From the NCBI GenBank assembly GCA_021740045.1, contig JAIPAP010000021.1, positions 1 to 42,130 on the forward strand: a stretch of 42,130 nucleotides of DNA, given 5' to 3'. Positions 27,866-42,044 of the stretch are shown here, piece after piece; positions within the stretch are counted from its first letter, which is position 1; each line of letters begins with the position of its first letter. The notes beneath the pieces are model-generated. The model made no database searches and had not been told where the DNA came from. It saw only the letters and a program-made list of their open reading frames with translations. The DNA comes from Bacteroidales bacterium (GTDB taxonomy: Bacteria; Bacteroidota; Bacteroidia; Bacteroidales; JAIPAP01). Both the position numbers and the translations under genes were made by a program.

Positions 27866-29039
27866 TTAAGGGCTTTTGTTTTTTAAAATTGCTGCAGGGG
27901 GGACAACGGATTTTTTTCTTCTGAAGGGAAAATGTTTGTAATTTAATAGATCATAGATGGTTACAACTGCTTTGGTGGGCTGAGTGCATTGACGAACGGT
28001 TATGGTTTTGTTTTGACTGTTCTCCACCGAAGTGGTGACGCATTTCTGTGTGCTCATAATGCGTACAATTTCCCGCCAGTCATGATGAAAACCTTTTTGT
28101 TTGAGCTGGTAGCGGATAGTGCTTACCAGCCAATAGGCTAATATGCCCAGGTGCACCTGTATACGCTGGATTCCTTCTTCAAACCGCTGAGCAAGCAGCC
28201 CTCGCATACTATCTTCTTTTTTGGCTTTGGCTTGGCTGCATACCCAGTACCACCAGGCGGGCATCGCTGCCCTTTTCTTTACTGCGGCCAAAACAGGCCA
28301 TATCACTTTCTTTCATCCGGCCTTCAAAATAAGTGTTGGTCAAATCATACAGGATGATCTTATCCTGCAGATCGAACAACTCATTAGTGCGCCGGGAAAG
28401 ATATTGCTCCAAAGCGGCTTTTTCCGTGTAGAGCTTACGGGCTATATCATAGAGCTTATCTTTGGTCAGTTTGTCCCGCTCCACCCCGGTTAACTCACAA
28501 ATAGCCGAGTTCTCTTTCATATAAGAGACGGTTTTGAGTTCCGAGGCCGGGTAGACCGCCCTGCATATAATATGGCTTGCTGCCATGTTGATGGCATCGC
28601 TCTCCCATCCTGCCTGCTGTAAAAACTCCCCGATTTTTAATTGATCAAAGGTTTGCTTACAAAGCCATTCCGGCCCTGTTTCACGAGCATCACGATGGGT
28701 TAAGGTCTCCAGGTCAACGCTATCCCAGGTTCTTTTTGCATCACCAACATCGCAGCGCTTTTTGTTTTTGATCTGGGTATAAAAATACCTTGCCAGTTGT
28801 TCGATCTTGTCCTTCCCTGATGCAGGGAAGAGTGTATTGCCACCGCCATTAACCAGTTGTTCAATCCGGCTGGCCAGTAGCTTCTTTTGCTCGATGCCCT
28901 CAAGTTCTTCCAGGCGGCCCAGGCTTACGATAATGCGGTGGTGAACGGTACCATTGCTGCGATAACCTTCGCAAAGTTTATAAACGCTATAGCGTTCACC
29001 GGTGGTCTTATTATATTTCTGATATGGTTTTAAAAACAC
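27866..29039 (-). pseudogene. IS1634-type (IS4 superfamily) transposase gene with internal deletions and frameshift
   Basis: From 29039 the reading gives an IS1634-like N-terminus (YSVYKLCEGYRSNGTVHHRI, SLGRLEELEG) and the conserved IILYDLTNTYFEGRMKESD, FGRSKEKGSDARLVVLGM. It then leaves frame and stops at 28209. In the next frame, near 28250, KKEDSMRGLLAQRFEEGIQR is followed directly by the family C-terminus HLGILAYWLVSTIRYQLKQK, HHDWREIVRIMSTQKCVTT and PFRRKKSVVPP, ending at 27866. Family members are about 550-600 residues; here only about 390 codons remain. Two segments are missing, after VVLG and after FEEGIQ, which removes much of the DDE core. No clear terminal inverted repeats were found. 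The product would be inactive. Confidence 0.82.
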
Positions 29040-29398: not shown

Positions 29399-31855
29399 AT
29401 GAAAAAGATTATATCTTTGATTATTAACGTGATAATCAGTTCAGCTGTATTTGCCGGCACGTATTCCGGTGGCAGCGGCACATCCGGCGATCCATACCAG
29501 ATTGCCACAACCGATGATTTGATCGAGCTTTCAACTACCTCAGCCGATTGGGCCTCACATTTTATTCAAACATCCGATATCTCTTTTAATGCTGACGAAA
29601 CCCAGGTGGACTGGGATGGTGATGGAAGTGCAGACGGCATTGGAACCAGTGGCTTTTCACCCATTGGTAACGATTGGGAGGCAACTCCCTTCACAGGAAT
29701 ATATAATGGACAACATCATATTATATCAAATATTTATATCAATCGCACAGCAACATATTATGTCGGTTTATTCGGATTAGTACGGAATGTAAATTCTGAA
29801 ATAAAAAATGTGGGTGTAACGAATGTAGATATAACAGGGCAAAATTGTGTAGGAGGGATTGTCGGACTTCTTTTTTATCAAGCTACAATAAATAATTGCT
29901 TTAGCACAGGAAGTGTGTCCGGAATGGTTCGTGTGGGCGGTTTATTGGGAGAAAACAACAAAGGAAATGTTTCTTTTTGCTATAGCCTGGCAGATACCTA
30001 TGGGGTTTCGTATTTAGGTGGCTTTGTCGGTCAAAACTCCAATTTTCCTGAGATAGATAACTGCTTTTCAACCGGTGATGTAACTATAAGCAGCGGGGAA
30101 GACCATCGTGTGGGCGGGTTTATAGGAGAAAACTATGATGCGGTTTTGCAAAATTGCTACAGTACCGGCAGGGTAATTACTGTGGAGTATGATGATCCAA
30201 CCAACAAAGGGTTTGCCGGACAAGTTCTTGGAGCCAGCACCATGTCCGGTAATTTTTGGGATACCGAAACTTCGCTCCAAAACACCTCTCATATTAGTGA
30301 TGGAGCAACCGGCAAAACCACAACAGAAATGAATACCCAAAGCACCTTTACCGATGCTGGCTGGGATTTTGGAAGTATTTGGTCTATTTCCCCAATTTAT
30401 AATAGCGGTTATCCCAATCTGGAAAATCAATCTGGAAGTACAATTACATGGACAGGTACTAGCAACTCAACATGGAACAATAATACAAATTGGAACGGGA
30501 TAGTGCCTTTGAATCAATATGATGTGATAATTCCAGATACAGATAATGACCCTGTTATAAGCAATGGAAGTTCTAGTGATTGCAATGATCTCACAATTAA
30601 TTCCAATGCCACCCTCACCATTAACTCCGGAGGCTCGCTCATCACCCGCGGCACCATCACCAACAATGGCACCATCAACATCGAGCGCAACATCCCCGAC
30701 GGGGAATGGCACCTGATCGCCTCCCCCATCAGCGGTGCCACCGCAGGCATGTTCCTTGGCGATTACCTCCAAAGCTGGGACGAAAGCACCGGCACCTGGA
30801 GCGACATCGTTGACGAATCTACTGTGTTGAATCCCGCCTCCGGCTACTCCCTCTGGGGGATGGCCGCAAAAGGCAACCATACCTTTACCGGCACCCCCAA
30901 TACCGGCAACCAGAGCACCGGCATCACCAACCAAGGCAGTGGCGACCACAACGGATTTAACCTCGTTGGAAACCCCTATCCTTCATCAATTAACTGGGAT
31001 CTGCTGAACGAGACCTACGGCGCTATATACTATTGGGATCCCTCAGAAGGCGCCAACGGCGATTACCTTGAGTGGAATGGCATCGGCAGCGGCAGCCGGT
31101 ATATCCCGCCCATGCAGGGGTTTTTCATTCACACTTCCGCCGATGCAACCTTCAGCCTTGAGAACAGCCACCGCACCCATGACGGCGCGGGTAATTACTA
31201 CAAGTCAGCCTCCTCAATAAACCGGGGCCTCATATTAGCTGCAGAAAACGTCTCGTATGCCGATGAGTTTTACCTGGTACTGGATGAATCCGCGCAGGCA
31301 GGTTTTGAAAAAGCCCGTGATGCCTGGAAGATCATGGCCGGTGGCAGCGGTATGCCGCAACTATACAGCCACTCTCCCGACGGCCACCTGGCCATCGACG
31401 CCAGACCCGAAACCGAAACGATTCAACTGGGTTATACCAATGATAAAGCCGGTATCCACACCATCATCCTTAAGGAAAAACATGGCATTACTAAAGCCAC
31501 ACTTGAAGACACCAAAACCAACACCTTCCACGACCTGACCAAAGGGGGTTACGAATTTGCCTGGGAAGTCATGGATAGTGAAACTCGCTTTAAGCTACAT
31601 TTAAAAGCGGTTGGCATTGATGAAAATGATAACAATGAAAACAATAACATTCTGATCTACACAGCTAACGACCAATTACATATTAAGGGTGCCATAGAAG
31701 GCGAACTTATGGTCATAGACCTGATGGGCAGAACCATGGTGCAAACCCAGCTCATGGGCGAGCAATCCATACCGGTGAATCTACAAAGCGGTATTTATAT
31801 CGTGCAGGTGAACACAGAAACCCAAACCGTCAATCATAAAATTTACATCAACTAA
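29399..31855 (+). CDS. Large secreted GLUG-repeat protein with T9SS sorting tail
   Basis: The 818-residue protein has a signal peptide (KIISLIINVIISSAVFAGT) and GTYSGGSGTSGDPYQIATTD, the usual opening of GLUG adhesin-like proteins. GLUG motifs occur at about 140-285 (CVGGIVGLLFYQATINNCFS, VGGLLGENNKGNVSFCYS, LGGFVGQNSNFPEIDNCFS, VGGFIGENYDAVLQNCYS), which build a beta-helix. From about 350 a second module follows (TNWNGIVPLNQYDVIIPDTD, WHLIASPISGATAG, FNLVGNPYPSSINWD, IPPMQGFFIHTS), shared with the 36278-37948 protein. The C-terminus is a T9SS tail (IEGELMVIDLMGRTMVQTQ, IPVNLQSGIYIVQVNTETQ). A surface or extracellular role is inferred. Composition changes near 30600, where G+C rises visibly. 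Confidence 0.9.
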   Translation: MKKIISLIINVIISSAVFAGTYSGGSGTSGDPYQIATTDDLIELSTTSADWASHFIQTSDISFNADETQVDWDGDGSADGIGTSGFSPIGNDWEATPFTGIYNGQHHIISNIYINRTATYYVGLFGLVRNVNSEIKNVGVTNVDITGQNCVGGIVGLLFYQATINNCFSTGSVSGMVRVGGLLGENNKGNVSFCYSLADTYGVSYLGGFVGQNSNFPEIDNCFSTGDVTISSGEDHRVGGFIGENYDAVLQNCYSTGRVITVEYDDPTNKGFAGQVLGASTMSGNFWDTETSLQNTSHISDGATGKTTTEMNTQSTFTDAGWDFGSIWSISPIYNSGYPNLENQSGSTITWTGTSNSTWNNNTNWNGIVPLNQYDVIIPDTDNDPVISNGSSSDCNDLTINSNATLTINSGGSLITRGTITNNGTINIERNIPDGEWHLIASPISGATAGMFLGDYLQSWDESTGTWSDIVDESTVLNPASGYSLWGMAAKGNHTFTGTPNTGNQSTGITNQGSGDHNGFNLVGNPYPSSINWDLLNETYGAIYYWDPSEGANGDYLEWNGIGSGSRYIPPMQGFFIHTSADATFSLENSHRTHDGAGNYYKSASSINRGLILAAENVSYADEFYLVLDESAQAGFEKARDAWKIMAGGSGMPQLYSHSPDGHLAIDARPETETIQLGYTNDKAGIHTIILKEKHGITKATLEDTKTNTFHDLTKGGYEFAWEVMDSETRFKLHLKAVGIDENDNNENNNILIYTANDQLHIKGAIEGELMVIDLMGRTMVQTQLMGEQSIPVNLQSGIYIVQVNTETQTVNHKIYIN

Positions 31856-31867
31856 ACCGGTTGGCGT

Positions 31868-31893
31868 CCTGGCGGGCAACAATGCTCGCCAGG
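31868..31893 (+). terminator. Intercistronic hairpin after the GLUG protein gene
   Basis: CCTGGCGGGC (31868-31877) pairs with GCTCGCCAGG (31884-31893), ten pairs with one G-U, six-base loop. No T-run follows, so it is more likely an mRNA-stabilising or attenuating hairpin than a strong terminator. Confidence 0.45.
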
Positions 31894-31931
31894 GCCCTCA
31901 AAAAATAATAAAACCAAAAATATACATCAAT

Positions 31932-32174
31932 ATGAAAACACTGAAAAAATTAATCCTGACCATAGCAATCGCATTATTCATCGGCGGGCTCTCCGCGCAA
32001 ACCCCACCCCCACCCAATGGCGACGGTGAAGGAAATTCACAAGACCCCACCAGTGGAGGCAATACCCCGGTAGGAGGCGGTGCGCCCATTGGCAGCGGCA
32101 CCCTGCTCCTGCTTGGCCTTGGAGCGGCTTATGGAGGGAAGAAGGTGTGGGATTTTCACCGCACCGAGAAGTAG
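31932..32174 (+). CDS. 80-residue exported protein with PID-CTERM-like sorting signal
   Basis: This very small protein has a signal peptide (MKTLKKLILTIAIALFIGGLSAQ), a Pro/Gly/Asn-rich linker (TPPPPNGDGEGNSQDPTSGG) and a C-terminal tripartite signal: the short motif GGGAPIGSG, a hydrophobic stretch LLLLGLGAAYGG, and basic residues KKVWDFHRTEK. That layout resembles PID-CTERM/PEP-CTERM-like sorting domains of Bacteroidota, which are thought to be recognised by membrane sorting proteins. There is no folded domain in between. It follows the GLUG gene by 76 bases. A near-twin of identical length lies at 38031-38273. Confidence 0.8.
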   Translation: MKTLKKLILTIAIALFIGGLSAQTPPPPNGDGEGNSQDPTSGGNTPVGGGAPIGSGTLLLLGLGAAYGGKKVWDFHRTEK

Positions 32175-32289
32175 GTCAGAAAATAAAACTGGTGGAAAAG
32201 ATAATTTTTCATCAACTTCAGCCGCAAATCAAAATTTCGGCCTGCAAATTTGGTTTACGCCGCATTAAGCCGCATCAAACTGCCCGGAC

Positions 32290-32320
32290 TTGATTCGATC
32301 AAAAAAATCCCATATCTTTG
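32290..32320 (+). promoter_or_regulatory. Promoter of the TPR/AraC regulator gene
   Basis: TTG at 32290-32292, 20-base spacer, TATCTTTG at 32313-32320: complete match to the Bacteroidota promoter pattern. The ATG lies 28 bases after the -7 element. Confidence 0.5.
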
Positions 32321-32348
32321 AGAGGTTCTTTCACAAAGCACTATTCAA

Positions 32349-34040
32349 ATGATTAGGCTGGGAAAAGTCATTTTCGTCGTAGGGGTGATTGCTGCGTTGA
32401 GTAATAGCAGCACAGCTCAGAATATAAAAGAAAACATCTTTGAAGAAAAATTAGAACAGGCAACCAATTTGATAGAGGAAACCGGCGATTCACTCCGGAG
32501 CCTTATGGCCGCAATAAGTGAAGATGCGGTTTTGACCGATTTGCAAAAAGCCAAAATAGACCTTATCCGCTCAAAGCTAAATTCACTGGAAGATGCGCTT
32601 AAGATTCTGTCAACTTCGGAACCAGTTACCGCTGACACAAACAGATTTCCGGGTACACTCATAAATGAAGCTCAAAGGTTGATAATCCTGTCCAGGCCTG
32701 ATGAGGGCATTCCGTTAATCATGAAATTTCTTGAAGGTGTTGACAGTCAAAGCGATTCGGCAGTGTATGCAAAAATTTACCTTGCCGAAGCATACCGGCA
32801 AAAGCAGGAGCACAACAAAGGAATTGGAATTATTTACGAAATACTTCGCAACTCCAATATCAGTGTCGCCAACAGGGCTTTTGCTTTCAACAGGATGGCA
32901 GCATTACAAAATGAGAACCGGAGTTTTGCCGGAAACAAAGCGGATTCGGTGAGCAAATATTCCAGGCTTTGCATTGATATTTCGCAGAAAAATAATCTGA
33001 CCGAATACCTTGCATCATCACAAAATGAACTCGGAAGTTATTATCTAAGACAAAGAATGCCTGACTCAGCGCTTTTCTTTTATTCTGAAGCTGTCAACAA
33101 TTTCCTTAGCCTCAATATGTTCCCTCAGGCCATCAATACCCATGTGAATTTGTCACGTCTTTATCTTTCAATTGGGCAACCGGAAGAATCAAGGGATATT
33201 CTCCTAAAGGCTTTGGATTTGGGCAACATCGAAGAAAACAGAAACCTGTTCATGTATGTTTATTTCAACCTGGCAAATATAAGCTACAAATCGGGCAATT
33301 ACGCTGATGCTTATGAGTATCTCCGAATTTCCTATGGTTTAAAGAGCCGTTTTTTTGTCGACAGGATGCAACGCCAAGTCAACGAAATGTCAGCAAAATA
33401 TGACCTTCGGGAAAAAGAAGCTAAAATTAATGAGGAGGCACAAAAAAACAAGACCTACCGGTTAAAGCTTAAATACCTCAGTGTTATTTTATTGATAATC
33501 ATATGCCTGCTGATATTGCTTATCGTAATGTCGAGGCTTAAGAACAGAGCCTATAAAAAACTGGTAGAACAAAACCTGAAGGCAATAAAAAAGGAAAAGC
33601 AGGTAGAGCAGTGCCTGAGGAATCTTACCGAAACGGACATCAAAAACAGAGTTGGCGCAACTGACCGTCATGCTGAGCTGGCCCTAAGGCTCGAAAAATT
33701 TATGGCCGAAGAAAAGCCTTATCTCTGGAGCGATGTCGGATTAGAAGAATTTTGTAAAAAACTGAACACCAACCGCACCTACCTTTCTAATCTTATCAAC
33801 GACAAGTTCAATATGGGTTTTTACGATTTTTTGTTCGAATACAGGGTAAAGGCAGCTTTGGAATATTTAAGCAATAAGCAGTTTAGTCATCTTTCCGTTG
33901 AAGGCATAGGTGAAATGACCGGTTTCAAATCCAGCTCTACTTTTTACAAAAGATTTAAAAGCGTGGTGGGAATGACGCCCAACCAATTCAGGGCATGGGC
34001 TCACAAGACCACACAGAATCAATTTGCAGATAAAACCTGA
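32349..34040 (+). CDS. Membrane-spanning regulator: TPR sensor domain, one helix, AraC DNA-binding domain
   Basis: The 563-residue protein combines an N-terminal signal-like segment (VIFVVGVIAALSNSSTAQ), TPR-type helical repeats from about 110 to 360 (LAEAYRQKQEHNKGIGIIYE, SSQNELGSYYLRQRMPDSAL, NLSRLYLSIGQPEESRDILL, FNLANISYKSGNYADAYEY), one membrane helix at about 377-398 (YLSVILLIIICLLILLIVMS), a coiled segment, and an AraC-type HTH pair at about 455-555 (LEEFCKKLNTNRTYLSNLIN, VEGIGEMTGFKSSSTFYKRF, GMTPNQFRAW). This puts the TPRs in the periplasm and the HTH in the cytoplasm. It would act as a one-component transmembrane regulator without phosphorylation. Nearby targets are probable, but unproven. 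Confidence 0.9.
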   Translation: MIRLGKVIFVVGVIAALSNSSTAQNIKENIFEEKLEQATNLIEETGDSLRSLMAAISEDAVLTDLQKAKIDLIRSKLNSLEDALKILSTSEPVTADTNRFPGTLINEAQRLIILSRPDEGIPLIMKFLEGVDSQSDSAVYAKIYLAEAYRQKQEHNKGIGIIYEILRNSNISVANRAFAFNRMAALQNENRSFAGNKADSVSKYSRLCIDISQKNNLTEYLASSQNELGSYYLRQRMPDSALFFYSEAVNNFLSLNMFPQAINTHVNLSRLYLSIGQPEESRDILLKALDLGNIEENRNLFMYVYFNLANISYKSGNYADAYEYLRISYGLKSRFFVDRMQRQVNEMSAKYDLREKEAKINEEAQKNKTYRLKLKYLSVILLIIICLLILLIVMSRLKNRAYKKLVEQNLKAIKKEKQVEQCLRNLTETDIKNRVGATDRHAELALRLEKFMAEEKPYLWSDVGLEEFCKKLNTNRTYLSNLINDKFNMGFYDFLFEYRVKAALEYLSNKQFSHLSVEGIGEMTGFKSSSTFYKRFKSVVGMTPNQFRAWAHKTTQNQFADKT

Positions 34041-34235
34041 CGGTTCTCATATTAGCGATTCAATATCCTTTACCGGGAGATAGTGCTTTAACGCAGAAGG
34101 AGTTCTTTAGCACGGCGGTTTTAACGATATACTACCCAAAATAATCTCTCCTCTTCAACTACTTGCATAACAATAATATGTAAGCACATTTTTATCCAAA
34201 GAAAGTCCTGTTTACCCAGAGACAGTTATAGTTTT

Positions 34236-34266
34236 TTGATTTGACTACACAGCAGGGTATTTTTAC
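34236..34266 (+). promoter_or_regulatory. Candidate promoter of the acylphosphatase-like gene
   Basis: TTG at 34236-34238, 20-base spacer, TATTTTTA at 34259-34266, one base off TAnnTTTG. It ends four bases from the ATG, so transcription would start at or near the start codon. The rest of the 229-base gap 34041-34269 shows no gene. Confidence 0.35.
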
Positions 34267-34269
34267 TTT

Positions 34270-34566
34270 ATGCTATGCAATAAAATCCATATCACCGGCT
34301 CGGTTTATAAAACAGGTTTCAGGTATTACCTGAAAGCAAAAGCCGATTTTTCGGGAGTAACCGGCGTTGTTTTTTACGAAGATGACAAATCAGTAGGAGT
34401 AATTGCCTCGGGCAGTAATGAAAACATCAAAAAGTTCCTGGAATTTTGCAAAGAGGAATTTTCTCCGGTTCACATCGATCATATTAAAATCTTTGATATT
34501 CCTTATCAGGAGTTTTCCACTTTTGAGGTGGTGGATGAGAAGCCGGAAACATTTTATTTTTCTTAA
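34270..34566 (+). CDS. Acylphosphatase-like protein lacking the catalytic asparagine
   Basis: The 98-residue protein has the acylphosphatase size and beta-alpha-beta pattern: KIHITGSVYKTGFRYYLKAK (compare the G-V-QGVGFR loop; the phosphate-binding Arg is kept), SGVTGVVFYEDDKSVGVIAS (normally GWVRN-DG-V), SGSNENIKKFLEFCKEE and IKIFDIPYQEFSTFEV. In catalytic members the second strand carries Asn after GWVR; here that place appears to be Tyr in VVFYEDD. The glycine-rich loop is also changed. So it is probably a non-catalytic or altered binding protein. The SUMF1-type gene follows 47 bases later on the same strand. Confidence 0.72.
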   Translation: MLCNKIHITGSVYKTGFRYYLKAKADFSGVTGVVFYEDDKSVGVIASGSNENIKKFLEFCKEEFSPVHIDHIKIFDIPYQEFSTFEVVDEKPETFYFS

Positions 34567-34613
34567 AACTGATAACAGCATAAAAAGTATATGGGTAATC
34601 AATACAATAAATT

Positions 34614-36191
34614 ATGAAGAATCTAATTACGAAATTACTTGTTGCAGCGCTGATGCTGCTGATTATTACCAGCTCAATTGCCAACAACATTCAGGTAACC
34701 AATGTAATGGTTACCGGGCAAAGAACAACTGAAGGCTATACCCTGGTGATGTTCGATCTTAGCTGGGAACACTCCTGGCGGACCAACGATCTGAATGGCG
34801 ACGGCGAAACCAACTGGGATGCCGCCTGGGTATTTGCCAAGTACCGTATTAGTGCTGCCAATGGCGGCGATGACTTGTGGAAGCATGTCTCACTCCACAA
34901 TACCGGTCATAATGGTGGAACAGGAACCGGCGCTATCATTGATGCCGGATTAGTAACCCCCGGTAGCCCTTTTCATGCTGCCACCAATCCGGCACTTGGC
35001 GTGTTTATTTATCGCCAGGCCAATGGAACAGGAACATTTTCCCTATCCGAAGCTCAATTGCGATGGAATTACCAGGCCGATACAGTAGCCGATAATGCAG
35101 TGGTGGATGTGCGGGTGTTTGCCATTGAAATGGTTTATGTGGCGGAAGGGAATTTCTGGGTAGGAACACCTGATGACGAAATGGATGTATTTACTGTGGC
35201 CAACGATGTTACCGCTCCTTATACGCCATTTTTAATCACCTCTACACCTCCCATGCTTCAGGAAAACGACACCGCTTCATCACCAAATAACCTTTCAATG
35301 TCCTTTGGCCTCCCCGATAACCTAACGGGATCTGATACTCTTCCTCTGGCAGATGGCTTCCCTACAGGCTATGCCGGCTTCTATTGTCAGAAATATAAGA
35401 TCGCCCAGCAACAGTACGTGGATTTTTTAAATACATTGACACAAATCCAGGCAAACAAGCGAAAGCACACATATGGTACTGCACGTTATGCTATAAGCGG
35501 CAGTACCGTTGGCAGTTACACGACCACCAATCCTTATGTAGCCTGCAACTATCTGAGCTGGATGGATGGCGCTGCCTACGCTGACTGGGCGGGGTTAAGG
35601 CCTATGACGGAGTTGGAGTACGAAAAAGCTTGTCGTGGACCCAGAACACCCATATCCGGTGAATACGCTATGGGCACCTGGGCCAAATTTGTTTTCTACA
35701 TTGTCAATCCCGGTGAGATTGATGAATCCATCCCGCCCGGAAGTAATAGCAATATTGTTTGTGAAAATAAGATCGGAGGTCCGATGCGTGTGGGTGTCTT
35801 TGCCACAGATAGTTCCACGCGTTCCCTGGCCGGAGCAAGCTATTGGGGCATTATGGAATTGAGTGGCAGCCTCAGGGAACATGCGGTATCGGTGGGTATT
35901 GTTGCCGGACATTCCTTCACCGGATTGCACGGTAACGGTTACCTGAATGTTGCAGGCGATGCTGATGTGGACTATTGGCCGGGCATAAACCATAATCAAG
36001 CGTACTATTTGCCAAACGAGCCTTATGGGGGAGTAAATGGCGTTACTCAAGCAGCAGGCGCCGGCCTCAAGGGTGGCAGTTGGTACAAACAAACTAATTG
36101 GCAAACAGTATCCAGACGATATGAGGTTATTAACCCGCCTGTCCATCGAACTGACGTTTGGGGATTTCGTTGCGTGCGAAGTCTTCCTTGA
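34614..36191 (+). CDS. Exported SUMF1/FGE-type domain protein with N-terminal beta domain
   Basis: The 525-residue protein has a signal peptide (ITKLLVAALMLLIITSSIAN), an N-terminal domain of about 145 residues (NIQVTNVMVTGQRTTEGYTL, VMFDLSWEHSWRTNDLNGDG, NPALGVFIYRQANGTGTFSL), and a C-terminal formylglycine-generating-enzyme-like (SUMF1/EgtB/PvdO) domain (MVYVAEGNFWVGTPDDE, FYCQKYKIAQQQYVDFLNTL, CNYLSWMDGAAYADWAGLRP, MTELEYEKACRGPRT, GGSWYKQTNW, VWGFRCVRSLP). SUMF1-fold proteins include sulfatase-activating oxidases and many binding or structural relatives. The metal or Cys pair of true FGE cannot be confirmed here, so oxidase activity is not claimed. It has no T9SS tail, unlike its neighbours. 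Confidence 0.88.
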   Translation: MKNLITKLLVAALMLLIITSSIANNIQVTNVMVTGQRTTEGYTLVMFDLSWEHSWRTNDLNGDGETNWDAAWVFAKYRISAANGGDDLWKHVSLHNTGHNGGTGTGAIIDAGLVTPGSPFHAATNPALGVFIYRQANGTGTFSLSEAQLRWNYQADTVADNAVVDVRVFAIEMVYVAEGNFWVGTPDDEMDVFTVANDVTAPYTPFLITSTPPMLQENDTASSPNNLSMSFGLPDNLTGSDTLPLADGFPTGYAGFYCQKYKIAQQQYVDFLNTLTQIQANKRKHTYGTARYAISGSTVGSYTTTNPYVACNYLSWMDGAAYADWAGLRPMTELEYEKACRGPRTPISGEYAMGTWAKFVFYIVNPGEIDESIPPGSNSNIVCENKIGGPMRVGVFATDSSTRSLAGASYWGIMELSGSLREHAVSVGIVAGHSFTGLHGNGYLNVAGDADVDYWPGINHNQAYYLPNEPYGGVNGVTQAAGAGLKGGSWYKQTNWQTVSRRYEVINPPVHRTDVWGFRCVRSLP

Positions 36192-36277
36192 TCATAAAAG
36201 ATAATTAGCATACTTCAGGTTTTGTTTTAAATAAATGATAGAAAATATTCAGTTTAAAAACAACAAACATTTTAATC

Positions 36278-37948
36278 ATGAAAAGCGTATTGCAATTGTT
36301 GATCGTACAGGCATTGGTAATGATCACCACGGTTTTGCCTGCACAATTTACCGGTGGTATAGGCCGGGGGGACAGTTTTTCAGAAAAGAGCAACAGTAAT
36401 CTGGGCAATAACTTTGTCCAGAGCGGTTTTTGGTCTGAAACTGCTAATTGGAGCGCAAACAAACTCCCGGATGAAAAAGAAATGGTATATTTAATGGCAG
36501 ACTGCTACGTTGACGGTGCAGCAACCGTTTCAACCTTGATTAATACGCCAGGCGCAAGCCTAACCATAAAACCTTCCGGGCGGTTAACCGTGAGCGGTTT
36601 TCTGGATAATCAGGGCACCCTCACCATCGAAAGTGATGCAAGCGGCACAGGATCATTAATCCACAACACACCAAACATAACCGCAGCAGTAAACAGATAC
36701 ATTGAAGCCTGGAGCAGCGCCAACCATGGCTGGCATCTGATGAGCAGCCCGTTGGCAAACCAGGCCATCAGCACTGAGTTTGTGAATATTTTTGCAGTAC
36801 CCATTAGCAGCGGAGTTGACCTATACAAATGGTACGAGCCGTTGGTTTTATGGATTAACATAAAGAACTCTTTTGGAAGCTACAATTGGGGCATAGCTCA
36901 ACAAAATTGGTCAAGTAGCTACAATCCTGTATTTGAAACCGGAAAAGGTTATCTGATAGCTTATGCCGCAGACCAAAACAAAACCTTTACAGGAATACTG
37001 AACATTAGCGACGTTGCTGTAACAAACCTTACCAACAACCTATATCAAGACCAAAAGGGCTGGCACCTACTGGGTAATCCGTTCAGTTCCGCCATCAAAT
37101 TTAACCAGGGAAACTGGAACAAAGTAAACATCGGCGCTTATGCGCAGGTATGGGACGAAACCGCAGCCAGCTACAAAATAATATCAGGCGATGAGGTCAT
37201 CCCTCCGCACAATGGGTTTATGGTTTACACATCCGGCAACGGATCACTGACAATTCCGGCCGATGCACGCCTGCACAGCGATTCGAATTGGTATAAATCT
37301 GTAAACGAAAACCGGCACATTGTTCTGAAAGCAAATGACCCCGATGGAAAAACCTCACAGGAAACCATCATCACCTTTCATCCAGATGCTACCCTTGGTT
37401 TTGACCTTAATTTCGATAGTTACTTTCTCACCGGTTTTGCGCCCATGTTTTACAGTATCAGCAACAACAAACTTTTGGCGCTCAACGCCCTGCCTGAATG
37501 TAACAAAGAATTGGTTATACCACTTGGATTTGTTAAAAACAATAGCGCCAATTTCAACATCACCCTGGAGCAAAACACCACGGAGCAAACCCTTTGGCTA
37601 GTTGACATGAAAAATAACTCCGAACATAATCTCTCACTGGAAAACTACGCCTTCATTTCTGCATTAGACGACGATCCCAACCGGTTTCTGCTAAAGTTTG
37701 AGTCAAATGAAGAAAGTGTGAACAATGCTCCTCCATCGGCTTATGTTTATCAAAACACCCTGTACCTTCCCGATAACTCAGGGCCAACAAAGGTTGAGGT
37801 TTTCGATCTGATAGGTCGCTGTGTATTGACTTCTGAAATTACCGGTGACGGCTTGCAAAGCATGCCACTTTCATTGCGGGGCGGGATTTATATTTTCAGG
37901 ATTACCGGCAACGGAAACACAACTACCCTGAAAGCGCTATTGCCCTGA
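36278..37948 (+). CDS. Secreted T9SS-tailed protein sharing a module with the GLUG protein
   Basis: The 556-residue protein has a signal peptide (QLLIVQALVMITTVLPAQ) and then a module aligned to the second half of the 29399 protein: FWSETANWSANKLPDEKEMV, SLTIKPSGRLTVSGFLDNQG, WHLMSSPLANQ, WHLLGNPFSSAIKFN, IPPHNGFMVYTS and DARLHSDSNWYKSVNENR. It ends with a T9SS tail (TKVEVFDLIGRCVLTSEITG, LRGGIYIFRITGNG, TTTLKALLP). It lacks GLUG repeats. A second PID-CTERM-like 80-residue gene follows. The shared module plus swapped N-termini suggests domain exchange between the two. Confidence 0.9.
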   Translation: MKSVLQLLIVQALVMITTVLPAQFTGGIGRGDSFSEKSNSNLGNNFVQSGFWSETANWSANKLPDEKEMVYLMADCYVDGAATVSTLINTPGASLTIKPSGRLTVSGFLDNQGTLTIESDASGTGSLIHNTPNITAAVNRYIEAWSSANHGWHLMSSPLANQAISTEFVNIFAVPISSGVDLYKWYEPLVLWINIKNSFGSYNWGIAQQNWSSSYNPVFETGKGYLIAYAADQNKTFTGILNISDVAVTNLTNNLYQDQKGWHLLGNPFSSAIKFNQGNWNKVNIGAYAQVWDETAASYKIISGDEVIPPHNGFMVYTSGNGSLTIPADARLHSDSNWYKSVNENRHIVLKANDPDGKTSQETIITFHPDATLGFDLNFDSYFLTGFAPMFYSISNNKLLALNALPECNKELVIPLGFVKNNSANFNITLEQNTTEQTLWLVDMKNNSEHNLSLENYAFISALDDDPNRFLLKFESNEESVNNAPPSAYVYQNTLYLPDNSGPTKVEVFDLIGRCVLTSEITGDGLQSMPLSLRGGIYIFRITGNGNTTTLKALLP

Positions 37949-38030
37949 AAATTTTTAAATGAATTTTGACAAAAAAGCTAAGGCAAAAACAAAACAGAAA
38001 ATGAATATTGAACCTGCAATTCTGAAAAAA

Positions 38031-38273
38031 ATGTTCCGGTTGAAACAACCGAACGTTTTGTTAACAATTATCCTATTAACTATTAATATACTAACCATTA
38101 ACGTCTCCCTCGCCGAGGATCCCCCGCCGCCGCCACCCGGCCACGGCACTTCGCGAAACGTTACCGGCGGTGATGCACCCATTGGCGGCGGAACCCTGCT
38201 CCTTATTGGCCTTGGAGTGGTTTATGGGGGGAGGAAGATAAATGGCATACGAAAAAGCACAAAAAACGTATAA
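38031..38273 (+). CDS. Second 80-residue exported protein with PID-CTERM-like signal
   Basis: From the ATG at 38031 the product is 80 residues, exactly the length of the 31932-32174 protein. Signal segment NVLLTIILLTINILTINVSL, linker EDPPPPPPGHGTSRNVTGG, motif DAPIGGG, hydrophobic LLLIGLGVVYGG, basic end RKINGIRKSTKNV. Starts at 37959 and 38001 exist but add Lys-rich residues ahead of the signal. With the 38031 start, the gap to the large gene is 82 bases, close to the 76 of the first module. The C-terminal 25 residues align with the twin without gaps, supporting a common origin. Confidence 0.78.
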   Translation: MFRLKQPNVLLTIILLTINILTINVSLAEDPPPPPPGHGTSRNVTGGDAPIGGGTLLLIGLGVVYGGRKINGIRKSTKNV

Positions 38274-38454
38274 ATATAAAGGTTATAAATTTGTAGCGTT
38301 TTCAACCTTATTGTTTACCGTTCGGTGGGAGCTATTCGTATGCTAGGCGGGTCAAAATAGTAAACCGTTTCACTGTTAAATAAGCTTGATGCAGATTGTG
38401 ATTCATCTCAAAAATTCAATAGCTGTTTTTATATATAGAGTTTTTTGAATTTAT

Positions 38455-38462
38455 TATCTTTG
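38455..38462 (+). promoter_or_regulatory. Candidate -7 element of the metal-efflux operon
   Basis: TATCTTTG matches TAnnTTTG but no good -33 element is seen. It is only six bases from the ATG at 38469, so the transcript would be almost leaderless. Confidence 0.35.
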
Positions 38463-38468
38463 CGCCCC

Positions 38469-38939
38469 ATGTTTACGAATAAACATATCCATATAACTGT
38501 TTCTTTCGTGGTCATCTCCATGATGATGTTTCACATGGCTATACCACACAGCCACCATCATCATAAGCAGGAAGACGAAGTGGTAACGCATAACGCAGAG
38601 CATGAAAGTCATGACCATCACCATCATCACGCCGGCGATCATCACCATGAAACTCCCCCCAGGGATAAGGATAACACAGAAGGCAGTGCCGGACTTTTCG
38701 CCCCTATCGAAAAGCACCTGCATGCGTTTCATGTCCACGAATTTGTCCCCGCCACCAAAATCAGGAAAACCATATCCCCAATTAAAGCATTTCCGCTTGC
38801 AGTCAGAACCACAAACAATGATATCAAACTTACGGCCGGAAACGAAAGAGCATACAGATACGTATTATTCAGACCCATATTCTATGACAATCCTTTTCTT
38901 GTAAACTGTTCACTGAGGGCGCCTCCATATTCTTCCTAA
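38469..38939 (+). CDS. Exported histidine-rich, metal-binding-like protein
   Basis: The 156-residue protein has an N-terminal hydrophobic segment (about 8-25, HITVSFVVISMMMFHMAI) and His clusters at 27-32 (HSHHHH) and 41-60 (HNAEHESHDHHHHHAGDHHH), then HLHAFHVHEF at about 90. The C-terminal half is unlike anything I recognise and ends NCSLRAPPYSS. His clusters of this kind bind Zn, Ni, Co or Cu. It leads an operon-like run with TolC-like, adaptor and pump genes, so a role in metal sensing, buffering or delivery to the efflux complex is inferred. A start at 38445 is possible but would overlap the -7 element. Confidence 0.78.
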   Translation: MFTNKHIHITVSFVVISMMMFHMAIPHSHHHHKQEDEVVTHNAEHESHDHHHHHAGDHHHETPPRDKDNTEGSAGLFAPIEKHLHAFHVHEFVPATKIRKTISPIKAFPLAVRTTNNDIKLTAGNERAYRYVLFRPIFYDNPFLVNCSLRAPPYSS

Positions 38940-39025
38940 TTACTTTCCGAACAACCGTACAATCAATTTGCCGGCCTTTTGAATAGGGGCTGAGCAATCA
39001 TTTTTCATTTAAAAATTAGCTATAC

Positions 39026-40204
39026 ATGTACAAAAAAATTGTATTCGCTATAGGCGTATACCTAACCGCATTGGGTCTTAACGCACAAAACCCGGGTGTG
39101 AATGAAGTATTGCGCCAAATCGGGAAGAATAACAAAAAACTTCAGGCCTATTCGGCGTGGATAGAAAGCAAGCATCTCGATAGGAAGACGGAAAACAACC
39201 TTTCTGATCCGCAAACCGATGTTTACTATCTCCCTTGGGGAAACGACGGGGCCTACACCGAGCTGCAAATCAGTCAGTCGGTGGAGTTCCCCACGGTTTA
39301 TGGCGCCCGGGGCAACTTGATTGGTAAACAGAGGCAGAAAATGCAACTGGAATACGAAGCTTTACGACAGGGGATTCTGCTAAAAGCAAAAAAACACCTC
39401 CTCGAAATCATATACCTGGATAAGCGACTGGCAGTTACCCAAAAACGCACCCGGCAGGCAAAGCGGGTATTCAACCATATTCAGGAATTATATGAACAGG
39501 AAGAGGTGGGCAAGCTGGAAATGAATAAGGCTAAAGTGGCCTGGATGCAGCAACAGTTCAAGGCAGAGCAGCTCCAAAATCAAAAGCAAAATGAGCTTGT
39601 GCTTTTAAAAGAGCTGAATGGCGGAAAGGCCGTTTCATTTAATCCGTCCGGCTATGACCAAAGCAGGGTATTGGCGAAACTTGACAGCTTATGGAAAAGT
39701 AAGCAAGCCCGCGATCCGGCTCTGGCCGTTTTGCAGCAACAGGAAGAGGTCGCCCGCCAACAGGTCAGGCTGTCGAAAAATAAGGCCCTGCCCGACCTGA
39801 AGGCCGGGTTCAACTATCAAAATGCGCAGGGGTCAAGCTTTAGCGGGATTTATGGTGGTATTTCAATACCGTTGTGGAACAACAAAAACAAAGTAAAGAC
39901 GGCAAAAGCCCGCCTGGAATACCAGCAAACGCATTCGGAAGCCACCCGTACGCAAACCTTCGCCCGGTATCAGAAAAAATACAATGAATACCGGATGCTG
40001 AGGGAGAAATACCAAAAGTATCGGTCTACCCTTTCGGGATTGCAGAGCGATACACTGTTGCTGGAAGCATACCGGCTTGGCGACATTACTTTCATAGAAT
40101 ATCATATGGAGTTGAAATTTTACCGGCAAGCCTACGATGCCATGCTTGAAGTGAAAAACCAACTCAACAAAAGAAAAGCGGAATTACGAAGACATCAATT
40201 ATAA
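39026..40204 (+). CDS. TolC-family outer membrane channel protein of a metal efflux system
   Basis: The 392-residue protein has a signal peptide (YKKIVFAIGVYLTALGLNAQ) and two TolC/OEP-type helical hairpin repeats: LRQIGKNNKKLQAYSAWIES and the coiled LLEIIYLDKRLAVTQKRTRQ, then the second repeat DLKAGFNYQNAQGSSFSGIY, GGISIPLWNNKNKVKTAKAR and YRLGDITFIEYHMELKFYRQ. Length fits CusC-type channels. No lipobox is seen, so it is held by its barrel. Its neighbours are a His-rich lipoprotein, adaptor and pump, so it completes a tripartite RND pump across both membranes. Confidence 0.9.
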   Translation: MYKKIVFAIGVYLTALGLNAQNPGVNEVLRQIGKNNKKLQAYSAWIESKHLDRKTENNLSDPQTDVYYLPWGNDGAYTELQISQSVEFPTVYGARGNLIGKQRQKMQLEYEALRQGILLKAKKHLLEIIYLDKRLAVTQKRTRQAKRVFNHIQELYEQEEVGKLEMNKAKVAWMQQQFKAEQLQNQKQNELVLLKELNGGKAVSFNPSGYDQSRVLAKLDSLWKSKQARDPALAVLQQQEEVARQQVRLSKNKALPDLKAGFNYQNAQGSSFSGIYGGISIPLWNNKNKVKTAKARLEYQQTHSEATRTQTFARYQKKYNEYRMLREKYQKYRSTLSGLQSDTLLLEAYRLGDITFIEYHMELKFYRQAYDAMLEVKNQLNKRKAELRRHQL

Positions 40205-40224
40205 ACCATAAAAGACATAACATC

Positions 40225-40503
40225 ATGAAAATCTTAAATTTAATTATAGCAGGAATCTTTTTATTTGCCGTATCATGTTCTTCACCAAATAAGAACAACA
40301 ACGAAAGCACTCAGCAAGAAACGGATGAACATACTCATGAAGAAAGCTCAGAAGCGCATGGCCACGAACACGATTCAGACGAGTCCGGTCATTCGCATGA
40401 TGAAGACCATCACCAGGAAGAGTTCAAAGTGAAGAAAGACACAGCTGAAGCCGAATCCGAACATCACTCCCATGAGGATGGTACCGAACATCATGATCAT
40501 TAA
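40225..40503 (+). CDS. Small histidine-rich lipoprotein
   Basis: The 92-residue product has a lipobox (AGIFLFAVSCSS, lipidated Cys18) and a tail almost entirely of His, Glu, Asp and Ser: DEHTHEESSEAHGHEHDSDE, SGHSHDEDHHQEEF and SEHHSHEDGTEHHDH. Such a disordered, acidic His-rich chain would bind divalent metal cations loosely in the periplasm. It lies 20 bases after the TolC gene and 17 before the adaptor gene, clearly in the same operon. No folded domain is expected. Confidence 0.85.
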   Translation: MKILNLIIAGIFLFAVSCSSPNKNNNESTQQETDEHTHEESSEAHGHEHDSDESGHSHDEDHHQEEFKVKKDTAEAESEHHSHEDGTEHHDH

Positions 40504-40520
40504 TATTTAAAACAGAAAAA

Positions 40521-42044
40521 ATGATTAGATATATTATTTTATTAATAGTCCTTGCCGTGGCCTCTTGTCAGCCTGAGGCAGACCATGAGCAGGGTCACGC
40601 CCATGATGCCGGGGGTGGACACGATGCGGCGGCAGAAAGCGCACTAACGGTGGATACCACCCTGTGGACCGGAAAGACCGAGCTGTTTGTGGAGTTTCCG
40701 GCCTTGGTAAAGGGGAAGGTTAGCCGGTTTGCCGCGCATTTCACCGTCATGGAAAAACACCGGCCCGTAGAAAAGGGAACGGTAACGGCGAGTTTGATTC
40801 AAGGCAGCAGCGGCATTCGAAACCGGGCGGAGGCTCCTTCCTCGCCCGGGATATTCACCCCGGCTTTGAAACCCAAGGAAGCAGGCAGCCACCGCCTGGT
40901 GTTTGTCATCGAGTCGCCGCAACTAACCGACCGAATTGTGCTGAAAAATGTGGAAGTTTATTCCTCGGTAGAAGCCGCACAGGAAGCCCTTGGAGAGGCT
41001 TCAGCCGGTGATGAGGGTAAGATTTCCTTCCTCAAGGAGCAGGCCTGGCGGATTCCGTTTCAGACGACCCCGGCGGTTAAGGACAGCATCTACGACATCA
41101 TACCGACCTCAGGCTCCTGGCAGGCTGCTCCCGGAGATACCCGTACACTGAGCGCCAATGCTTCAGGGATAGTTGGTTTTGCAATGGAAAGCCTGACTCA
41201 GGGAGCCACAGTCAGAAAAGGCCAATTGTTGATGACCCTGAGCAGTAAGGAACTCACGACTCACAACCTGGAGGCTGAAATAGCGAAGGCGCGGGCCAAC
41301 TTCGAGCAGGCCAGGGCATCCTGGGAAAGGAAGAAACAATTGTATGAAAAAAATATCGCTTCCAAATCGGAATATGAGCGCGCGGAGAATCAGTACCGGG
41401 TGGCTAAAGCATCGTACGAAACGCTTAAGGCCGGATACGCTGCCGGCGGTAAGCAAGTCAGGGCTCCCTATGAGGGTTTTATCAAAACGATTAATGCATC
41501 TAACGGCGATTATGCCGAAGAGGGAGCGCCCCTGGTCACCATCGACACCAACCGTTCAAGGCTATTGAAGGCTCATGCCGGTTCTTCCTATGCTTCCGAT
41601 CTGGATGCCATACAGAATATTTTCTATCAGCCGGAAGAAGGTAAGTGGTCAAGCTTGAAGGCTACCGGTGGAAAACTGTTGTCGGTCGGCAAACAAGTAA
41701 AAAGCAATGAACCGATGATTCCCGTATTTGCCAAAGTCGGCGAGCGGATAGCCATGCCGGAGGGTAGCTTTACGGAAGTACAGATCGCCGTGGGGCAACC
41801 CGGCCAAAACATCGCCATACCCGAATCGGCTCTGCTGGAAGACTACGGTAACTATTCGGTGATCGTGCAATTGTCGGGAGAGCTGTTTGAACGCAGACCG
41901 GTACGGATAGGAAGGCAAAACGGCGACATGGTGGAAATAACAGAAGGATTGGATGCGGGAGAGATAGTCGTTAGCAAGGGAGCCTACCAGGTAAAAATGG
42001 CTTCCATGTCGGGCGATGGCCCCGCGCACGGACACGTTCATTAA
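40521..42044 (+). CDS. RND efflux periplasmic adaptor (CusB/CzcB-like lipoprotein)
   Basis: The 507-residue adaptor has a lipobox (LIVLAVASCQPE, Cys16) and a short His-rich stretch (DHEQGHAHDAGGGHD) before an extra N-terminal beta domain of about 130 residues (FVEFPALVKGKVSRFAAHFT, AGSHRLVFVIESPQLTD) often found in Bacteroidota metal adaptors. The HlyD-like core follows: lipoyl/hairpin (GIVGFAMESLTQGATVRKGQ, EIAKARANFEQARASWERKK, KASYETLKAGYA), IRAPYEGFI-like VRAPYEGFIKTINASNGDYA, and the barrel/membrane-proximal part (VGQPGQNIAIPESALLEDYG, EITEGLDAGEIVVSKGAYQV). It ends GPAHGHVH, a His-bearing tail. It joins the TolC-like channel to the pump. Confidence 0.92.
   Translation: MIRYIILLIVLAVASCQPEADHEQGHAHDAGGGHDAAAESALTVDTTLWTGKTELFVEFPALVKGKVSRFAAHFTVMEKHRPVEKGTVTASLIQGSSGIRNRAEAPSSPGIFTPALKPKEAGSHRLVFVIESPQLTDRIVLKNVEVYSSVEAAQEALGEASAGDEGKISFLKEQAWRIPFQTTPAVKDSIYDIIPTSGSWQAAPGDTRTLSANASGIVGFAMESLTQGATVRKGQLLMTLSSKELTTHNLEAEIAKARANFEQARASWERKKQLYEKNIASKSEYERAENQYRVAKASYETLKAGYAAGGKQVRAPYEGFIKTINASNGDYAEEGAPLVTIDTNRSRLLKAHAGSSYASDLDAIQNIFYQPEEGKWSSLKATGGKLLSVGKQVKSNEPMIPVFAKVGERIAMPEGSFTEVQIAVGQPGQNIAIPESALLEDYGNYSVIVQLSGELFERRPVRIGRQNGDMVEITEGLDAGEIVVSKGAYQVKMASMSGDGPAHGHVH

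Follow-up and report, generated by a model that had tools for sequence, protein, structure and literature searches.

In the exosortase model, an exported protein ending in a short motif, a hydrophobic segment, and a basic end is cut by a membrane exosortase and transferred to an unknown acceptor, in settings of exopolysaccharide genes (PMC1569441). VimA, of the linking-sugar pathway of the type IX secretion system (T9SS), matches a FemAB family associated with PEP-CTERM and exosortases, and a common type of carrier compound has been speculated (PMC7468200). In Flavobacterium johnsoniae, deletion of xrtF scored like deletions of porV, porU, and porZ in sand colonization, biofilm, and zorbs; the exosortase substrates of this species were left to future work and are predicted to be quite dissimilar from PEP-CTERM proteins (PMC10936215). 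Here we describe two gene pairs in a stretch of 42,130 nucleotides from a Bacteroidales bacterium (GenBank assembly GCA_021740045.1, contig JAIPAP010000021.1, positions 1 to 42,130; hereafter the window), each consisting of a gene for a large protein with a T9SS type A tail and, directly behind it, a gene for a small exported protein of about 80 amino acids (aa) that resembles the PID-CTERM family.

By sequence comparison, this large-small pair is conserved in many genomes of the phylum, mainly with T9SS proteins of the RemA/RemZ type. The families concerned were known already, apart from the A5-type small proteins described below, and no report of a T9SS gene paired with a PID-CTERM-like gene was found in the literature searched (subscription papers and the NCBIfam family notes lie outside it). 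We read the pair as a RemA/RemZ-like T9SS type A surface protein and a microprotein that would be the substrate of an exosortase, perhaps for surface retention, and we rate this combined reading as about evenly balanced between right and wrong.

The gene pairs in the window and in the genome

Both pairs lie where the original prediction had placed them (Table 1), with their open reading frames (ORFs) confirmed. The large proteins score 28.3 bits (protein 1) and 31.6 bits (protein 2) with the T9SS type A model TIGR04183 (cut-off 23), and 20.5 and 18.7 bits with Pfam PF18962, under its cut-off of 27; protein 1 also matches GLUG (PF07581, 59.6 bits). As had been proposed, the two share a C-terminal module together with the T9SS tail (blastp, 27% identity over 469 columns, E 6e-32), and a tail-free profile of this module matches protein 1 at E 3e-87 and protein 2 at E 4e-122, both being rows of the profile and protein 2 its first row. 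The layout predicted for the small proteins is also borne out, with an aligned motif, a hydrophobic stretch, and a basic end behind an export signal (signal peptides were judged by reading, not by a predictor). Their likeness to PID-CTERM proteins holds for the architecture; with the PID_CTERM model (NF046080) they score 16.0 and 18.8 bits (17.6 and 19.2 in the genome-wide run) against a cut-off of 26, and since both fall under it we call them PID-CTERM-like, not members. The claim that the two have the same length and follow gaps of 76-82 bases stands in part. The gap of pair 1 is 76 bases by the ORF coordinates; small ORF 2 opens at 37959 (104 aa), 10 bases past the upstream stop, and contains further internal ATGs, and its 80 aa and 82-base gap hold only for the ATG at 38031. 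That start agrees with the family median of 78.5 aa (48 proteins, starts picked by rule), but the length match depends on it, and we do not take the equal length of 80 aa as evidence because the second start was chosen among the ATGs.

The pairing recurs throughout the genome (3.90 Mb in 161 contigs, 97% complete; the window is contig 14). A PID_CTERM search gave ten places at E<=10, eight of them credible, one decayed, and one, in contig C77, that we dropped as chance (E 1.7, 14 residues in a 267-aa frame); four of the six credible small proteins outside the window reach the cut-off of 26 bits. Each of the eight intact small genes shares its strand with a T9SS type A gene that lies directly upstream, at gaps of 8-82 bp, and all eight partners exceed the TIGR04183 cut-off. 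None of 60 other sampled T9SS genes has a small gene behind it, although two of these control loci (L067 and L092) reach only 187 and 4 bases past the stop. The controls were picked stepwise down the list of tails, plus some atypical ones. T9SS type A tails number at least 150 in this genome; scoring covered 150 of 185 candidates and did not take in two of the eight partners. The counts of 8/8 against 0/60 rule out chance pairing, and the repeated pairing first noticed in two places thus holds for every intact copy. The decayed ninth copy (contig C23, L017 about 605-790) has an altered motif and an early stop; a T9SS tail was not found upstream of it, where a frame resembles, by eye, the end of an RND-type efflux gene.

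The eight partners range from 556 to 1910 aa and vary in their N-terminal parts (GLUG, fn3, sortilin-like, and others), and about 440 C-terminal residues are common to all of them. The tail-free module profile finds 8/8 partners (the two window proteins being profile rows) and 0/60 controls, whose loci extend no more than about 200 residues ahead of the matched tail; the controls match just the tail end of the module profile. A PxP-type start of the tail is present in 54 of the 60 controls (strict PNP in 48), and in none of the eight partners. Profile A4, made from 30 modules, matches RemZ of F. johnsoniae at E 6.3e-46 (profile positions 9-446 of 447) and RemA at E 1.7e-43 (positions 11-446), and the module with its T9SS tail aligns to residues 625-1113 of RemZ and 964-1435 of RemA. 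These profile alignments make the partner module a homologue of RemA/RemZ; the small protein is probably linked to a partner of this type. The AlphaFold2 model of window protein 2 is all-beta (pLDDT 79, pTM 0.70); among the 50 Foldseek matches listed none covered the fold of the whole module, the tail-like domain alone matched meaningfully (tails of RgpB, mirolase, and NucA, TMt 0.52-0.67; DUF3244 proteins), and the sequence profile was more informative. The genome also encodes a SprA homologue (2691 bits; the sole T9SS secretion component searched), and the closest module genes among named records come from metagenome-assembled genomes, mostly of Bacteroidales or Bacteroidetes.

The eight intact small proteins share AP(I/L)G near the C terminus, followed by a hydrophobic stretch and then a basic end, and their alignment has 14 invariant columns, including AP, G, YG, and K. 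The same architecture runs through 48 small proteins (these eight and 40 from the module search described below), in which the core is preceded by PP in 44 cases and by an HG-type motif in 31. Such conservation, and an established family model with relatives in 49 of 296 genomes, make it extremely improbable that the small ORFs are functionless, whether as chance frames or as decayed genes, even though they are short and of low complexity, the window copies score under the family cut-off, and one decayed copy is known.

Table 1. Coordinates of the paired genes in the window and of single small-protein genes at other loci (L, locus).
Feature	Location	Strand	Remarks
Large T9SS type A protein 1 (818 aa)	window 29399..31855	+	GLUG repeats, RemA/RemZ-type C-terminal module, T9SS tail
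Protein 1 shared C-terminal module, extent in alignment A2	window 30533..31852	+	tail match 31649-31849
Strong RNA hairpin in the gap of pair 1	window 31866..31895	+	folding vs shuffles
Small exported protein 1 (80 aa)	window 31932..32174	+	starts like a signal peptide; segment rich in Pro, Gly, and Asn; then GGGAPIGSG, hydrophobic stretch, basic end
Large T9SS type A protein 2 (556 aa)	window 36278..37948	+	RemA/RemZ-type C-terminal module, T9SS tail
Protein 2 shared C-terminal module, extent in A2	window 36626..37945	+	tail match 37751-37933
Small exported protein 2 (80 aa from ATG 38031)	window 38031..38273	+	PPPPPPGHG, GGDAPIGGG, hydrophobic stretch, basic end
Single PID-like small protein	L024 1495-1746	-	beside riboflavin-synthase-like gene
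Single PID-like small protein	L032 1501-1746		beside riboflavin-synthase-like gene
Single PID-like small protein	L040 1501-1710		beside riboflavin-synthase-like gene
Single PID-like small protein	L190 5213-5407		beside riboflavin-synthase-like gene
Single PID-like small protein	L191 5339-5584	-	beside riboflavin-synthase-like gene
Single PID-like small protein	L193 5816-6133		beside riboflavin-synthase-like gene
Single PID-like small protein	L194 5253-5432	-	beside riboflavin-synthase-like gene

The pair and the exosortase in other genomes

Among relatives of the same order, 5 of 30 genomes hold such small proteins, at 11 loci; at eight of these, a module gene immediately precedes the small gene. 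Across a sample of the phylum, PID_CTERM matches at E<=2e-4 in 49 of 296 genomes, 48 of them above the cut-off. We examined the locus of the best match in 30 of the 48 other PID genomes, calling it paired when the motif is preceded, on its own strand and within 700 bases, by the end of a T9SS gene with the module: 23 of the 30 are paired, six are unpaired, and one lies at a contig edge. The tail-free module was found in the same 23 phylum and eight order loci. Homologues of the small protein sitting mostly away from T9SS genes had been named as the result that would speak against a pairing; this is not the case for the PID_CTERM loci or the order relatives, but it is the case for the Flavobacterium-type small proteins considered below. 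Starting from the module alone, we confirmed 505 matches in named genomes and kept the top 80; of the 77 that could be assessed (three run off their contigs), 40 have a small gene behind them.

Two unusual carriers came out of these loci. At L257 (4311-4823), behind a module gene, one ORF of 153 aa (start by rule) is a tandem of two small-protein units, both of which begin, by eye, with a hydrophobic segment. In genome G166, a protein of 973 aa (L182 3115-6036, minus strand) ends in a PID-CTERM-like tag, compared with the usual carriers of about 80 aa; it was the sole long frame examined as a possible fusion of module and PID tag, and it was rejected as such, having neither a T9SS tail nor the module.

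Members of the exosortase/archaeosortase superfamily have a conserved Cys, a conserved Arg, and a third catalytic residue. The genome has one locus of this kind (contig C11), which scores 58.4 bits with TIGR04178 (cut-off 23) and has exosortase X (NF046081) as its best model (84.7 bits, under the cut-off of 170); its sequence contains GGCSG, NLFR, and SHDW as possible counterparts of these residues. The co-occurring exosortase that the original prediction had suggested looking for is therefore present in this genome, and it is present in every PID genome as well: a match to the exosortase X (XrtX) model at E<=1e-5 occurs in 90 of the 296 genomes, including 49/49 PID genomes and 41/247 others (Fisher test, 2e-31 by genome and 5e-18 by genus, with no correction for phylogeny). 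The XrtX cut-off itself is exceeded in 36 genomes, 35 of them with PID (the exception is G147). Similarly, the module profile is found in 47 of the 49 PID genomes versus 45 of the 247 others (E<=1e-10, tail included, with no correction for relatedness and, for most genomes, no more than five candidates scored).

In several genomes the exosortase gene is also close by. Loci L186 and L187 each carry a module gene, a PID gene, and an exosortase gene as a single run; in L188 the exosortase gene lies 0.8 kb beyond the large gene, on the opposite strand and with one gene between; and in L183 the PID gene is accompanied by XrtX, XrtX-associated-like (58.8 bits, cut-off 75), polysaccharide-export, and Wzc-type kinase genes. 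We consider it very probable that the small protein is linked to the exosortase. Cutting is predicted from the co-occurrence in 49/49 PID genomes and the adjacency in several, which suggests that the small protein is processed by the exosortase rather than being an intact anchor. This bears on a rival explanation along the lines of the original prediction, in which the small protein remains intact in the inner membrane and docks or escorts its large partner in the periplasm, holding it until T9SS export. Its layout (a signal-peptide-like start, a short periplasmic segment, one hydrophobic segment, a basic end) would suit such a factor, and the gene order is like that of type B substrate/SprF pairs (PMC12618676). 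The expected cutting, the shortness and low complexity of the periplasmic segment, and the trapping of RemZ in SprA/PorV, for which the available part of PMC10994853 mentions no such factor, make a docking role distinctly improbable.

The Flavobacterium-type small proteins show where the exosortase and the T9SS neighbor part. Profile A5, made from seven small proteins of Flavobacteriaceae-like genomes, finds small ORFs (58-117 aa) in 27 of 41 genomes that are XrtX-positive and PID_CTERM-negative, or in 24 of 38 when the three genomes that supplied rows are set aside; none was found in 18 class-mates without an XrtX-model match (18 of 206 such genomes). The count of 27 leaves out weak matches in G023 and G158, two more of the 41, and the count for the class-mates leaves out three matches inside frames of 200-526 aa. 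The one A5-type protein tested matches no NCBIfam model. Of the 27 best loci, 10 are behind a T9SS gene and four have the tail-free module; by this distribution, the small protein tracks the exosortase more closely than it tracks the T9SS partner. In addition, the single PID-like small genes of Flavobacteriaceae-like genomes (Table 1) adjoin a riboflavin-synthase-like gene, mostly with a pdxA-like gene next, and not a T9SS gene (names by eye). The A5-type and single small proteins are candidate substrates of XrtF-type exosortases, as judged from their sequences.

Both the tighter tracking of the exosortase and the single copies beside the riboflavin-synthase-like gene favor the main rival explanation, namely that the small protein is a general exosortase/exopolysaccharide component whose gene is carried along by duplication and co-expression with RemA/RemZ-like genes, and is not partner-specific. 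The PID gene of L183, among XrtX and exopolysaccharide genes and away from T9SS genes, would fit it too, as would the greater likeness of the small proteins within our genome (34-64% identical among themselves, versus 24-43% for their partner modules) and the weak co-divergence there: distance-matrix correlations over the eight pairs give r 0.29 (p 0.056) for the module against the whole small protein, r 0.43 (p 0.022) for the module against its last 55 residues, and r 0.48 (p 0.016) for the T9SS tail against the small protein. However, the order of the pair is kept across genomes in spite of modules that diverge this far, the 60 other T9SS genes carry no small gene, and the one orphan copy of the genome is decayed. 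On balance we think a general component unlikely, while regarding it as a more serious competitor than a docking factor.

A possible coupling of two sorting systems

The recurring pair suggests that two separate protein-sorting machines cooperate at the cell surface. In the mechanism that we propose, the small protein would be inserted in the inner membrane through its signal peptide and its C-terminal hydrophobic segment; the XrtX-like exosortase of contig C11 would cleave it at the AP(I/L)G motif and would transfer the short Pro/Gly-rich peptide to an envelope or exopolysaccharide carrier. In a further and more speculative step, the processed peptide could serve as an adapter that helps retain the T9SS partner exported by SprA and its carrier. 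An adapter is the economical reading when the exosortase model is applied to a short tagged peptide with a frequent RemA/RemZ-like partner, but surface retention as the purpose of the small protein is tentative, and we lean somewhat against it.

Several observations weigh against a reading in which the small protein serves a T9SS partner. Small genes lacking a T9SS neighbor were found at 3 of the 11 loci of order relatives, at 6 of the 29 assessable phylum loci, at 17 of the 27 best A5 loci, at L183, where the PID gene stands beside XrtX and exopolysaccharide genes, and in the decayed ninth copy. Conversely, 37 of the 77 module-only loci have no small gene behind, and among 29 module loci of other genomes from the phylum search, scanned with A5 and not with the PID profile, 22 lack a following A5-type small protein even when E is relaxed to 0.5, and seven have one. 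Together with within-genome correlations of only 0.29-0.48 (p 0.016-0.056, n=8), the 37 module genes without a small gene are at odds with strict cognacy, which had been suggested for the small protein. The window small proteins and the C11 exosortase score under the PID_CTERM and XrtX cut-offs, and once cut at both ends the peptide would retain only some 15-35 residues (by reading), which is small for an anchor. Finally, F. johnsoniae mutants of Fjoh_0334 and Fjoh_0651, which belong to neither system, score like the xrtF mutant (PMC10936215); the xrtF phenotype fits a coupling but is nonspecific because these mutants are alike.

Put more generally, Bacteroidota may couple exosortases (XrtX, XrtF, and relatives) to the T9SS, with microprotein adapters that would fix RemA/RemZ-type proteins within the polysaccharide at the cell surface; stated this broadly, we consider the idea rather unlikely, though not by a wide measure. 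If it were true, the exosortase substrate would be a tiny adapter often encoded behind an adhesin, and not the adhesin itself, and this would help to explain the like colonization failure of F. johnsoniae xrtF and T9SS mutants and would supply candidate XrtF substrates. Candidate exosortase substrates are in any case now at hand in defined Bacteroidota genomes, and many of these candidates are linked with T9SS proteins like RemA and RemZ; should the link be borne out, members of the phylum would depend on the joint action of the two sorting systems for surface display.

Surrounding genes and comparison with known systems

The genes between the two pairs are those that had been named from the sequence: a TPR/AraC-type regulator, an acylphosphatase (PF00708), and a protein with an FGE-sulfatase/SUMF1 domain (PF03781). 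Just upstream of pair 1, two minus-strand frames (28209-29039 and 27866-28306) resemble pieces of a broken IS1634-type transposase. After pair 2 (window 38445-42044) there is a His-rich small protein, which has no family match above cut-off, and then CzcC/CzcB-type metal efflux-like genes (by eye). The whole gap of pair 1 folds at -29.3 kcal/mol owing to a hairpin (z -4.97; 0/200 shuffles equally stable), and the gap of pair 2 shows no hairpin on the same test (z 0.52). We rejected a terminator between the paired genes, since the hairpin of pair 1 is not followed by a T run on the plus strand and pair 2 has none; a plasmid origin was likewise set aside, pair 2 (the only pair searched) having no match among plasmid records. 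Elsewhere in the genome, single-domain response-regulator receiver proteins (PF00072) follow two of the pairs (L013 3532-3933 and L016 7473-7871, the second under cut-off), and frames similar to these by eye occur near the decayed copy in L017.

Among described systems, the closest is that of PID-CTERM (NF046080), exosortase X (NF046081), and the XrtX-associated membrane protein (NF046082), with which the small proteins share the C-terminal architecture; four of our eight pass the family model, none of them in the window. The motif differs (PIDGG there, AP(I/L)G here), and a tie to RemA/RemZ-type T9SS proteins is absent from the NCBIfam family names. RemA and RemZ (PMC10994853) resemble the large partners in the C-terminal module and T9SS tail, which align, and differ from them in the N-terminal parts; no exosortase-tagged neighbor is mentioned in the available part of that paper. 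Type B substrates with their SprF-like shuttles (PMC12618676) likewise have the gene of a dedicated accessory protein directly downstream of the T9SS substrate gene, but we do not regard the present genes as such a shuttle pair, since the tails here are of type A and the accessory protein is an exosortase-type protein of only about 80 aa. The connection between T9SS and exosortases in PMC7468200 is one of sugar chemistry, and the part available mentions no tagged small protein beside T9SS genes. Compared with PEP-CTERM/EpsH (PMC1569441), the likeness lies in the signal peptide, the short motif, the hydrophobic segment, and the basic end, and in the co-occurrence with an exosortase near exopolysaccharide genes. 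PEP-CTERM proteins are diverse and mostly encoded in single-gene operons (PMC1569441), whereas the tagged protein here is nearly the tag alone and is encoded behind a T9SS gene.

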